The notes below the pieces were generated by a model. That model was not told the DNA's origin. It ran no database searches and saw only the letters and a list, made by a program, of their open reading frames with translations. A program made the position numbers and the translations under genes. This document shows positions 54,203 through 56,389 of a stretch of DNA of 64,000 nucleotides, piece by piece. Numbering within the stretch: position 1 is the first letter of the stretch; the number at the start of each line of letters is the position of its first letter. The stretch lies in NCBI GenBank assembly GCA_030018355.1, contig JASEFN010000004.1:1-64000 (forward strand), given 5' to 3'. This DNA is from Caldisericia bacterium. GTDB taxonomy: Bacteria > Caldisericota > Caldisericia > B22-G15.

Positions 54203-55687
54203 TTATTTTGCTTCTTTTATTAACTTTTCTTCTCTCTCTTTTTTTCTTTTTAAAATTTCTTCATATCTTTTTCTTTTTTCAAGAGCCTCTTTATTTAATC
54301 TCTCCTTTTTTGCTTCTATTGCCTTTTTTGCTGCCTCTTTAAACTTTTCAAAGATGGGCTCCTTTTGCCATACTTCATTCATAACTTTTGCAACTTCTTT
54401 TGAATAATTATCAAGATCACTCATAAGTTTTTCATCTGTTGCAATTAAGTCTGCATCAAGATCAGTTGCTTTGGGTTTTGTTTTTCTATAAATATATCTA
54501 AAAACTTTTGGTTCATCTATTATCTCACATGGCATAAGTAAATTTTTATTGAATGGTTGAAACTTTCTAATATAAGTAAACAGTGGTGATTTTAAAATTT
54601 CAATCAAACTTTTTTCTTTGATGTTTCCACCTGAAAAATGTAAGAAAATACAAGGTTCTACTTCTCCTTTGTGATTAATATGAATATATCTTCTTCCACC
54701 CGCAATACATCCAGTTACAAATGGTGCGTCATTCCAGAAATCCATTGGCCAAATTGGTTTATTTTCTCTTGCCCATCTAATAAAATCGCCAAGTTTTTTT
54801 CTCTGTTCAGGAGTTGCCATAAGTTCTTGAGATGGTTCTCTTCCAACTGGCATATAAAGGAAATACCAACCCCAGAATGCACCTTTTTCTATTAACATAT
54901 CAAGAAACTCTTCGCTTGTTACAGTATCTGCATTAAGTTTTGTATAAGTTGTGGAATAACCAAACAAAATTCCATTTTCTCTTAGGAGATCCATTGCATT
55001 CATTAATTTTTTAAAAACACCTTTTCCTCTTCTAAAATCTGTTTCTTCTTCAAAACCTTCGATACTTAAAACTGGCATTACATTTCCAACCTCTTTTATC
55101 TTTTTAACCATTTCTTCATCAAGAAGAGTTCCATTTGTAAATACCTGAAATGCGCAATCTGAATGTTTCTTGTAAATTTCAAACATATCTTCTCTTATAA
55201 ATGGTTCTCCACCAAGAATAGTGTAAAGATATGTGCCAAGTTGTTTACCCTCTGTGATTATTTTGTCAACAATTTCAAGAGGAAGATCATCCTTTTTAGT
55301 GTATTCACCAGCATAACAACCAATGCATCTTAAATTGCATCTCATTGTTGGACTTATAAGAATTGTAAAAAGACCTGGAACACCAAATTTTTTCTCTGCT
55401 TCATTATTTTTTTGAACACCAATAAGAAGAGTATTAACAAAGAAGTTATAACCAAGTCGTGTAAGCATATTTTCATCAACTCTTTTAATAACACCAGTGA
55501 TTAATTTCCAGTAGTTATCTTTATGTATATTCTTTTTTGCAGCTTCTATTTGATCTTTATACATTTTAATCGGAGTTATGGCTTTCATAAAATCTAAAAT
55601 CTTGTCAAGATTTTTATCTGGATCCTTTTTAGCATATAAAAGAGTCTTTTTAACAAGAAAACCTGCTATGGCTTGTTTAATACCCAT
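54203..55687 (-). CDS. Radical SAM protein
   Basis: 494 residues. The 4Fe-4S triad is Cys117-x3-Cys121-x2-Cys124 in TMRCNLRCIGCYAGEY, followed by the SAM-binding TILGGEPFIREDMFEI. Later cysteines (VTGCIAGGRRYIHINHKGEVEPCIFLHF, and LLMPCEI) form a SPASM-like auxiliary-cluster region. A 75-residue Lys/Glu-rich helical tail ends the protein. Such proteins often modify peptides or act in heme/menaquinone-like pathways; the substrate here is unknown. ATG 55687 follows GGAGGTGA. The regulator gene upstream overlaps it slightly. Confidence 0.88.
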   Translation of the reverse strand: MGIKQAIAGFLVKKTLLYAKKDPDKNLDKILDFMKAITPIKMYKDQIEAAKKNIHKDNYWKLITGVIKRVDENMLTRLGYNFFVNTLLIGVQKNNEAEKKFGVPGLFTILISPTMRCNLRCIGCYAGEYTKKDDLPLEIVDKIITEGKQLGTYLYTILGGEPFIREDMFEIYKKHSDCAFQVFTNGTLLDEEMVKKIKEVGNVMPVLSIEGFEEETDFRRGKGVFKKLMNAMDLLRENGILFGYSTTYTKLNADTVTSEEFLDMLIEKGAFWGWYFLYMPVGREPSQELMATPEQRKKLGDFIRWARENKPIWPMDFWNDAPFVTGCIAGGRRYIHINHKGEVEPCIFLHFSGGNIKEKSLIEILKSPLFTYIRKFQPFNKNLLMPCEIIDEPKVFRYIYRKTKPKATDLDADLIATDEKLMSDLDNYSKEVAKVMNEVWQKEPIFEKFKEAAKKAIEAKKERLNKEALEKRKRYEEILKRKKEREEKLIKEAK

Positions 55688-56351
55688 TTTTATCACCTCC
55701 ATTTAAATAACTAATTAATAAATTTACTATCTCCTCTCTCTCTTCATCTTTTAAATTTATAAAATTAAATTTAATATCTTCCCAATAAGATTCAAAGCCT
55801 TTAAAATCATCGAAAAATTTAGTGAGTAAGAAAAATAGATAAGTAATAAAACCTAAAAAAACTATTTTTGAAGTTGAAGATAAAATAAGAAATTCTTTTA
55901 ATGTTTCAAACTCTTTAGTATTTGAAAATAGAGTTGAAATTAATAAAAAACCTAATACAACATAAAGCAGTGGTTTTATTGTTTTTGATGTTAAAATTTT
56001 TAATTTTTCCTTAATAAACTCATTTACCTTGCCTTCACTTTTTGCTTTTTCAAACTCATTTAAAAATTTTTTATATTCATCTATTTTTCTCGATCCATAG
56101 AGAAAAACTCTACCTTGAAGTGTTAAAGTGTAAAAATATTTTGGTCTTCCTTTACCTACTTTTTCAAATTCAATTTTTAATATTCCTTTTTCCTTTAAAT
56201 TTCTTAAATGTTCATATGCAGTTATAAAATTTATATCTAATTTTTTTGCAAGAATACAAGGTGTAATTCTTTTATTTTCTTTAAAATATTCACTTAAAAA
56301 GTTAATTAAATCTTTTTGTCTTTCAGTTAGTTTGATATCAAAATTTTCCAT
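55677..56351 (-). CDS. Membrane-anchored winged-helix regulator
   Basis: 224 residues. The N-terminal 90 residues form a winged helix (LAKKLDINFITAYEHLRNLKEKGILKIEF, then a wing with GKGRPKYFYTLT, then a helix starting LTLQGRVFLYG) similar to PadR/ArsR-type repressors. A charged helical linker follows, then two transmembrane helices (about 127-143 and 161-179) and a short acidic tail. Membrane attachment of a small regulator is unusual. It is coupled to the radical SAM gene, so sensing of that enzyme's membrane-linked product is a possibility, unproven. Confidence 0.75.
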   Translation of the reverse strand: MENFDIKLTERQKDLINFLSEYFKENKRITPCILAKKLDINFITAYEHLRNLKEKGILKIEFEKVGKGRPKYFYTLTLQGRVFLYGSRKIDEYKKFLNEFEKAKSEGKVNEFIKEKLKILTSKTIKPLLYVVLGFLLISTLFSNTKEFETLKEFLILSSTSKIVFLGFITYLFFLLTKFFDDFKGFESYWEDIKFNFINLKDEEREEIVNLLISYLNGGDKNGY

Positions 56352-56360
56352 GTTAAATCT

Positions 56361-56389
56361 ATTTTATTAGTTTTTTTTATTTTTGTCAA
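56361..56389 (-). promoter_or_regulatory. Promoter of the regulator-radical SAM (-thrC) operon
   Basis: Perfect TTGACA (56384-56389), 17-nt spacer, TAAAAT (56361-56366) on the minus strand. The -10 ends 9 nt before ATG 56351, so the expected start is about 3 nt before the ATG, and there is no Shine-Dalgarno. The -35 overlaps the stop region of aroQ. Confidence 0.8.

Follow-up and report, generated by a model that had tools for sequence, protein, structure and literature searches.

A winged-helix regulator bearing two hydrophobic segments is coupled to a radical SAM/SPASM gene in several bacterial phyla and may control a membrane-lipid enzyme

What does a short DNA-binding protein with two hydrophobic segments control, and what might it sense, when its gene runs directly into that of a radical SAM protein? 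This question is raised by a locus in a 64,000-nucleotide stretch (the window) of contig JASEFN010000004.1 from a Caldisericia bacterium, for which a first-pass annotation had proposed a sensing and modification unit. The two genes, here called REG and rSAM, are arranged as follows.

55677..56351, minus strand: REG (224 aa), a winged-helix regulator whose C-terminal part has two hydrophobic segments
54203..55702, minus strand: rSAM, radical SAM/SPASM protein, ORF of 499 aa; likely start at 55687, giving 494 aa
55694..55700, minus strand: GGAGGTG, Shine-Dalgarno of rSAM, located within the 3' end of REG, read from the sequence

As the first-pass annotation had noted, the Shine-Dalgarno (55700-55694) falls in the last codons of REG. 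Because of this position, the likely rSAM start was placed at the sixth codon, an ATG at 55687, where aligned relatives start too (14-sequence alignment), and counted from there the genes overlap by 11 nt. In the window gene calls, gaps of 34 and 14 bp flank the pair, and next to it lie amino-acid genes and a gene of the metallo-beta-lactamase fold, with lipid genes not among them.

The pairing proved to be conserved in the neighbourhood analysis of homologues that the annotation had suggested. The regulator is present in 28 of 54 Caldisericota genomes and rSAM adjoins it in 24 of the 28; in the others the rSAM start is cut by the contig end (two genomes), rSAM is reduced to remnants (one) or there is no room for it (one). 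Among 91 Bacillota regulator copies, 75 have rSAM within 2.5 kb, all 75 on the same strand, and 16 are without rSAM in the stretch examined, which covered about 1.5 to 5 kb or more on each side of the regulator. Atribacterota showed the pairing in 7/7 cases, and the pair was also found in Chloroflexota and Dictyoglomota, the clade names of loci being those of centre genomes or near relatives. Seen from the enzyme, the regulator is present in 12 of the 80 kept rSAM loci. The distance matrices of REG and rSAM are alike (r 0.85 for 51 of the 54 pairs given), a likeness not counted as evidence because species history is still in it. Regulator-carrying genomes include some that we take to be those of the cultivated thermophiles Carboxydothermus hydrogenoformans, Syntrophothermus lipocalidus and Thermacetogenium phaeum; the species names of G018, G143, G243, G265, G295 and G491 are our assumption.

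The N-terminal part of REG is a predicted winged-helix DNA-binding domain.

56100..56333, minus strand: winged helix-turn-helix domain, residues 7-84, from Pfam matches and the AF2 model

A LexA_DNA_bind match over residues 7-61 scores 24.1 bits, barely above the Pfam cut-off of 23.7, and a PadR match over residues 44-84 scores 23.6 bits, under the PF03551 gathering score of 27. The AF2 model places helices at 10-25, 31-38 and 42-54 and strands at 58-63 and 71-76. Structural matches are to generic MntR/MarR/PadR folds at Z 8-10, mostly across 70-120 residues, and a Foldseek search with REG gave no match at E < 0.001. Hence the head described earlier as PadR/ArsR-like stands as a winged helix, and PadR/ArsR membership was dropped, the similarity being of the general winged-helix kind. 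No REG relatives were found on plasmids.

The following DNA elements were recorded upstream of the genes.

56361..56377, minus strand: candidate conserved promoter/operator element AAAAAAACTAATAAAAT, 17 bp, exact in G000, G001, G003 and G004
56361..56389, minus strand: core promoter predicted for the REG-rSAM operon, TTGACA-N17-TAAAAT, by consensus match only
Upstream of the regulator or rSAM at other loci: direct-repeat motif TTTTKGKYYTTTTGG, candidate operator
Bacillota: candidate operator sequence TTTTGGGTCTTTTGG

The 17-bp element precedes REG, or its cut-off start, in those four genomes and is the sole copy in G000 at no more than one mismatch (the backwards pattern gives 2); it overlaps the core promoter, and the comparison covers close relatives only. 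The direct-repeat motif is absent in the window's own lineage. It was drawn up by eye from sequences upstream of REG, so matches in its source genomes are no test; among 42 loci not used for writing it, it precedes the regulator or rSAM in 26, against 2 for the reversed control, and neither gene in 16. Counted within 150 nt and at no more than one mismatch, it lies upstream of REG in 15/42 new loci (reversed 1/42, opposite strand 0) and upstream of rSAM in 13/29 (reversed 1/29, opposite strand 0). Several of the 42 genomes are closely related; duplicates L268-L272, L274 and L285 and the broken-regulator locus L311 were left out, rSAM upstream stretches shorter than 100 nt were uncounted, and the total of 26 includes L283 (rSAM upstream stretch of 91 nt), being 25 without it. 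In the 3.4-Mb genome G083, the only two matches at this stringency stand before REG and before rSAM at the locus, and the motif precedes rSAM in several operons with the order rSAM-REG (L295-L298, L304, L308). Locus L058 (G061) has no match at no more than one mismatch.

In 5 of 12 genomes scanned as a whole, the motif occurs no more often than its reversed control, so the evidence it offers is its position. A wider regulon was considered and set aside: of six off-locus matches examined (four exact, two with a single mismatch), four lie inside coding ORFs, an exact match in L206 precedes genes that by eye resemble a V-type ATPase operon, and a single-mismatch match in L205 precedes a gene; G078 holds 13 exact matches, most of them outside the six. 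A direct repeat is an unusual operator for a symmetric dimer.

The enzyme carries the cysteines of a radical SAM cluster and further ones.

55316..55339, minus strand: CxxxCxxC of the radical-SAM 4Fe-4S cluster (C122, C126, C129), invariant in 14- and 30-sequence alignments

The extra cysteines pointed out by the first-pass annotation held up well, C332, C351 and C392 being invariant in the same two alignments and Pfam giving a SPASM match. The long charged tail is present and carries little weight; it is confined to the window's own family in the 14-sequence alignment and was set aside as a functional feature. No rSAM relatives were found on viral contigs. Of 101 Thermotogota genomes, 96 carry the family, 95 of them at E 1e-140 or better. 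A two-sequence BLASTP with the copy in a 1,860,725-bp Thermotogota genome, which we take to be T. maritima, gave 36% identity over 472 aa (E 3e-101); that genome has one rSAM copy at E 1e-60 and 35 radical SAM matches in all, and its copy is a candidate for the published membrane-spanning lipid synthase (Mss), an enzyme reportedly first described in a Sci Adv paper of 2022. In the available parts of the Mss papers (PMC13274423, PMC11868695, PMC11604127), Mss is present in T. maritima and shares with rSAM a modelled active site in which SAM is predicted, and the criterion used for Mss is BLASTP E 1e-30 or better with more than 30% identity to the published protein (PMC13274423). Both families occur in Bacillota, Chloroflexota, Actinomycetota, Omnitrophota, Patescibacteria and Woesearchaeota. 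The two archaeal records among 80 kept of 573 rSAM loci are Woesearchaeota, to which Mss matches in archaea are limited in the text available (PMC11868695); Mss matches also occur in Planctomycetota, Bacteroidota and Spirochaetota (PMC11868695), phyla with no record among the 80 kept of 573 rSAM loci. Thermotogales produce membrane-spanning diabolic-acid lipids (PMC8788747), and the spread of rSAM in Thermotogota is consistent with an Mss, without proving it.

The annotation had also called for a search for a co-occurring peptide or lipid substrate gene; in the window no lipid genes adjoin the pair, and in Bacillota they recur. A PlsC-type acyltransferase and a patatin adjoin the pair in 5 of 20 Bacillota stretches, and the genes near 91 Bacillota regulator loci include UbiB (19), phasin (16), patatin (11) and PlsC (7), with phasin counted by an HMM of two sequences and the others by sequence motif. 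UbiB occurs in the orders regulator-UbiB-rSAM and rSAM-regulator-UbiB. For 137 operonic rSAM neighbours in the 80-locus set, the 25 of 155 families listed include few that are lipid-related (ABC1 3, patatin 3), and NAD synthase (9) and UDG (7) are commoner. The Bacillota neighbours point to a membrane lipid rather than a peptide.

Peptide maturation has nevertheless to be weighed, since the highest-scoring structural hits of rSAM, SkfB (Z 25.6), SuiB (24.3) and anSME (24.0), all belong to the peptide maturases. With the SPASM domain and weak matches to NCBIfam peptide-maturase models, they would fit a RiPP or protein maturase, and REG would then control a signalling-peptide or natural-product system. 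Ahead of the barrel, however, residues 2-106 are modelled as all-helical without strands, which argues against an N-terminal RRE, and the gaps beside the pair leave no room for a precursor gene; the RRE-dependent form was set aside on these points. The recurring lipid genes and the occurrence in nearly all Thermotogota, unlike accessory RiPP systems, make a maturase of any kind quite unlikely in our judgement. A role in tetrapyrrole (AhbD/NirJ2-like) or cofactor biosynthesis we regard as very improbable. The top NCBIfam scores of the window rSAM are to AhbD, the heme b synthase (108 bits), and to NirJ2 (104 bits), and a NirJ2 match at E 1e-20 or better is seen in 24 of 30 relatives, but both scores are far under the curated cut-offs of 500 bits, for which the heme-type assignment was dropped; the rSAM family has a helical domain of its own at the N-terminus, and tetrapyrrole families are absent from the 25 of 155 Pfam families listed for the operonic neighbours. 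The UbiB and phasin-like genes, and the two gene orders with UbiB, could instead mean that rSAM has UbiB/ABC1 and phasin as partners and acts, in place of glycerophospholipid tails, on a quinone, polyprenyl or storage lipid sensed by REG. Patatin and the PlsC-type acyltransferase recur as well, however, and rSAM is carried by Thermotogota, which are not known to have respiratory quinones, so this substrate seems unlikely.

The hydrophobic segments of REG bear on a further alternative.

55926..55982, minus strand: hydrophobic segment 1, residues 124-142, putative membrane helix, Kyte-Doolittle (KD) 1.92 over 19 residues
55809..55865, minus strand: hydrophobic segment 2, residues 163-181, putative membrane helix, KD 1.83 over 19 residues

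REG might be a cytosolic ligand-binding repressor in which these helices form a dimerisation and acyl-chain-binding domain, still controlling a lipid rSAM; by analogy with TetR-type fatty-acid regulators, the ligand could be acyl-CoA, acyl-ACP or a free fatty acid. The segments are indeed borderline for insertion. Of 51 relatives, 16 have KD 1.6 or higher in both (54 pairs given, with L029, L036 and L053 dropped for short coverage), and four loci of one family have weaker segments, with a best KD of 1.1-1.6. The AF2 helices there are 16 residues long (pLDDT 55-78), and segment 2 bears acidic residues in many relatives. Moreover, the rSAM copy of the presumed T. maritima genome adjoins a TetR gene, whose closest solved relatives include the TetR/AcrR proteins 5gp9 and 5gpa, presumably FadR structures. 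On the other side, at least one segment reaches KD 1.6 in 42 of 51 relatives, contrary to the possibility raised beforehand that homologues might always lack membrane segments. Likewise, 7 of 61 window gene calls have at least two stretches of KD 1.6 or more, and the six besides REG each have at least four. We consider a cytosolic REG possible though somewhat doubtful. The two transmembrane helices first annotated stand as two hydrophobic stretches whose membrane insertion is likely but borderline; the acidic tail, to which relatives have corresponding C-terminal stretches, carries little weight.

The explanation we prefer, with confidence about evenly balanced, is that REG is a one-component, probably membrane-embedded repressor of its own promoter and of a lipid-tail radical SAM gene of the Mss group, under membrane feedback. 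Computational support comes from the conserved pairing, the recurring motif, the Bacillota lipid-gene neighbours and the rSAM/SPASM fold. The sensing and modification unit first proposed keeps its tight and wide coupling and is refined to a regulator with its regulated enzyme, because one gene or both are repeatedly preceded by the DNA motif; signal and substrate enter conditionally. We infer that REG binds the motif and represses, rather than activates, its own promoter and the coupled rSAM gene. The enzyme would act on membrane phospholipids at their hydrocarbon tails and, as a most likely member of the Mss group, would couple two fatty-acyl tails. The C-terminal hydrophobic hairpin would read a membrane property, such as order, thickness or product-lipid content, and this reading would alter DNA binding and close a feedback loop. 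Joint occurrence in several phyla, often with a shared DNA element, suggests such a membrane-tuning circuit. More specifically, and quite tentatively, the pair could be a dedicated homeostatic switch of bacterial membrane-spanning lipids, with the hairpin sensing bilayer order or thickness and the direct-repeat operator setting the rSAM level.

Bacterial membrane-spanning lipids include the brGDGTs, which serve as palaeotemperature proxies, and the share of membrane-spanning lipids shifts with growth temperature in two cultured Bacillota (PMC13274423). In the main text of that paper, as far as available, the word 'regulator' is absent, and our literature search, with subscription journals outside its scope, met no described regulator of their synthesis. 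A regulator conserved in genomes taken for those of cultivated thermophiles, together with its predicted DNA element, would make lipid regulation directly testable, and UbiB/ABC1 and phasin genes become linked to a probable lipid radical SAM enzyme.

Among known systems, the PadR, MarR and MntR/IdeR winged-helix repressors have the DNA-binding fold of REG and are not known to have membrane segments. Transmembrane regulators of the ToxR/CadC kind are one-component proteins with a DNA-binding domain joined to one or more membrane segments, as REG would be, and the membrane environment is proposed to influence them in the part of PMC10269533 available. Unlike them, REG has two adjacent hydrophobic segments, no large outer domain and a LexA/PadR/TrmB-like winged helix. 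ArnR/ArnR1, membrane-bound one-component regulators of Sulfolobus acidocaldarius, have an N-terminal HTH and two C-terminal transmembrane segments, a domain layout that REG would share if its segments insert, and ArnR binds a repeated promoter element, as REG would with its own repeated motif (PMC6396743, available text). ArnR is an activator of archaellum genes with inverted-repeat boxes, whereas the motif here is a direct repeat and REG is tied to one enzyme gene; the HAMP region of ArnR is itself putative, and REG gave no Pfam HAMP match at E up to 1. On the enzyme side, the archaeal tetraether synthase GDGT-MAS/Tes (PDB 7tol, 7tom) shares with rSAM a radical SAM barrel and an extra Fe-S part, and ranks as a structural match (Z 18.0, 3.5 A rmsd, 250 aligned residues) below the peptide SPASM enzymes (Z about 24-26). 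DesK/DesR controls membrane fluidity, and REG would be, by analogy, a one-protein counterpart of this type of control, acting on tail-to-tail coupling.

The REG-rSAM pair of the window (GC content 27.8%; host genome 1.4 Mb) is flanked upstream by aromatic-amino-acid genes, and downstream by a metallo-beta-lactamase-fold gene and by a PLP enzyme and a kinase of the threonine/lysine kind. The minus strand also carries a five-tRNA cluster (Thr, Met, Gly, Tyr, Thr) at 118-521.

Features of the REG-rSAM locus
55677-56351, minus strand: winged-helix regulator gene (REG), 224 aa
54203-55702, minus strand: radical SAM open reading frame (rSAM), 499 aa, downstream of REG
55700-55694, minus strand: Shine-Dalgarno sequence GGAGGTG within the last codons of REG, preceding the rSAM ATG at 55687
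56389-56361, minus strand: promoter-like site TTGACA-N17-TAAAAT, read from the sequence

The ATG at 55687 is the likely start of rSAM, as its position is shared with relatives in the alignment, and the two genes thus overlap by 11 nt. The Shine-Dalgarno sequence lies inside the 3' end of REG, as the first-pass annotation had proposed, and from the position of the promoter-like site the REG-rSAM transcript would be almost leaderless. A close rSAM relative (80-81% over the available part) was found in two Caldisericota records.

Neighbourhood analysis of homologues bore out the suggested coupling of the two genes. REG was detected in 28 of the 54 Caldisericota genomes (E 1e-6 or better), and rSAM adjoined it in 24, including G034, in which REG lies downstream; in the other four, the rSAM start was cut by a contig end (G022, G042), only the rSAM ends were left (G014), or there was no room (G043). 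Among 398 Bacillota genomes, 79 carried a total of 91 REG copies, 75 of which had rSAM within 2.5 kb and always on the same strand; rSAM was absent from the stretch fetched around the remaining 16, one of them (locus L342) at a contig edge. REG was also present in 7 of 50 Atribacterota genomes, adjoined by rSAM in all 7. The rSAM family itself is broad, with 573 relatives in the genome collection, and the best 80 of these loci span many phyla. REG fell within the fetched stretch of 12 of these 80, with a broken REG left in L125, and a whole-genome search of 50 genomes from this set matched REG in 14 at 1e-6, 13 of them below 1e-30.

The head of REG is a winged helix, consistent with the DNA-binding role first assigned to it, but the PadR/ArsR-like label did not hold at the family level: PadR scored under the Pfam cut-off, LexA_DNA_bind just above it, and no single family fitted. 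Among 26 relatives, Pfam matches at E 0.001 were spread over TrmB (13), LexA (10), Fe_dep_repress (10) and HrcA (6), while R11, T44, Y46, G56 and G68 were invariant. After the winged helix, hydrophobic stretches occur at residues 124-142 and 163-181; at least two stretches of this strength were found in 7 of the 61 gene calls of the window, and the six besides REG have at least four each. Of 54 relatives submitted to hydropathy analysis, 51 were kept after three were dropped for coverage. The two stretches of the window protein are putative transmembrane helices. Both reached a Kyte-Doolittle value of 1.6 in 16 relatives (1.2 in 40); homologues do not uniformly lack such stretches, with at least one at 1.6 in 42. 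On these counts, and with weaker stretches in four REG loci of one family, membrane insertion is judged no more than likely. The AF2 model of REG was of middling quality (pLDDT 71).

Direct repeats of the TTTTGG type precede REG genes across different phyla. Of 12 genomes, 9 have an exact copy of the motif TTTTKGKYYTTTTGG just upstream of REG, and a tenth (G057) has a copy there with a single mismatch. A separate rSAM gene likewise has the motif ahead of it in G057 and G091, as it does in G083 with one mismatch, and in G090 the motif lies at an uncertain rSAM start. In G083 (3.4 Mb), the copies before REG and rSAM are the sole two matches. Genome-wide counts were no higher than those of a reversed-pattern control in 5 of the 12 genomes (G057, G061, G067, G077, G096), so only the position of the motif is telling; moreover, most of the 12 supplied the pattern and thus provide no test of it. 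The motif was evaluated at 42 loci independent of its writing, allowing at most one mismatch within 150 nt upstream. It preceded REG in 15 of 42 and rSAM in 13 of 29, compared with 1 of 42 and 1 of 29 for the reversed pattern and none for either gene on the opposite strand; it stood before either gene in 26 loci and before neither in 16. Several rSAM-first operons (L295-L298, L304, L308) have it ahead of rSAM. The window family differs in carrying AAAAAAACTAATAAAAT, which overlaps the core promoter and is exact before REG in G000, G003 and G004 and before a cut-off REG start in G001; it is the sole copy in G000 at up to one mismatch, where the backwards pattern occurs twice. The recognition-helix region of the window REG likewise differs from the commoner SKWTAYD form. 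The simplest reading of these sequences is that REG may bind its element, regulating itself and rSAM, with a lineage-specific change of element.

Some loci depart from the usual layout. In an Atribacteria genome, a REG pseudogene (L125:845-1072) separates an intact motif from an intact rSAM gene, and in G014 an intact REG is followed by a collapsed rSAM with only N- and C-terminal pieces (L127:747-1903). Second rSAM copies, with no adjacent REG found, occur in G018 (L130:5320-6789), near genes resembling the threonine/lysine pair of the window, and in G010 (L021; G010:C19), with a one-mismatch motif upstream. In G399, REG is broken by stops (L311:4558-5312); genes for UbiB and a phasin are close by, as are two exact copies of the motif on the opposite strand. 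Another exact copy (L206:1501; G057:C136:25694) precedes, by about 230 nt, genes resembling by eye a V-type ATPase operon.

The rSAM protein combines radical SAM and SPASM domains (Pfam). C122/C126/C129 and C332/C351/C392 were invariant in a 30-sequence alignment, the latter three accounting for the extra cysteines noted earlier. The confident predicted model (pLDDT 92) has an all-helical N-terminal domain (residues 2-106), and its fold matched SkfB (Z 25.6), SuiB (24.3), anSME (24.0) and the archaeal tetraether synthase 7tol (18.0).

Of the 20 Bacillota stretches fetched, five (L292, L302, L306, L307, L309) have genes for both a patatin-like phospholipase and a PlsC-type acyltransferase close to the pair, and Pfam confirmed the seven scanned proteins of these kinds and the patatin in L293. 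Of the 91 Bacillota REG loci, 19 had UbiB/ABC1 nearby, 16 had phasin, 11 patatin and 7 PlsC. Among 137 neighbours in the 80-locus set, ABC1 and patatin were counted 3 times each versus 9 for NAD synthase and 7 for UDG (25 of 155 families listed); lipid genes being a minority there, the lipid link rests mainly on REG-bearing Bacillota. UbiB/ABC1 cassettes, often with a phasin-like gene, were seen beside rSAM at the REG-bearing loci L052, L064, L275, L295, L300, L305, L312 and L313 and, with no REG found, at L080 and L104. A literature search found no paper joining UbiB, phasin and radical SAM.

The rSAM family occurs in 96 of 101 Thermotogota genomes, in 95 at E 1e-140 or better. Aligned over 472 aa, the copy in a 1,860,725-bp genome, which we take to be T. 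maritima, is 36% identical to the window protein. In that genome, tandem radical SAM genes are followed by a TetR gene (L184:3797-6883). By eye, the enzyme also has a TetR-like neighbour in L178, L101 and L124. It seems that regulators of different families have become attached to the same enzyme. According to the accessible part of PMC8788747, Thermotogales make membrane-spanning diabolic-acid lipids, and the accessible part of PMC11868695 limits archaeal hits of the bacterial membrane-spanning lipid synthase (Mss) to Woesearchaeia. The two archaeal records among the best 80 of 573 rSAM loci are both Woesearchaeota; some bacterial phyla that this part of PMC11868695 lists with Mss are missing among the titles of these 80. 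With its distribution over Thermotogota and Woesearchaeota, and the lipids made by Thermotogales, the family fits Mss and is a candidate for it.

The gene pair, the recurring element and the fold were found computationally; we infer binding, repression, membrane sensing, lipid coupling and feedback. In the most likely mechanism, REG would occupy its element, across the promoter or immediately downstream of it, and keep both REG and rSAM low; a membrane change felt by its hydrophobic hairpin would release it, and the additional rSAM enzyme would couple or alter lipid tails, restoring the membrane state.

In a literature search of the texts accessible outside subscription papers, no dedicated regulator with a DNA element was found for this rSAM family. 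Mss itself is already known, and so are membrane-bound one-component regulators, as the accessible parts of the sources describe for ArnR (PMC6396743) and for the ToxR/CadC kind (PMC10269533).
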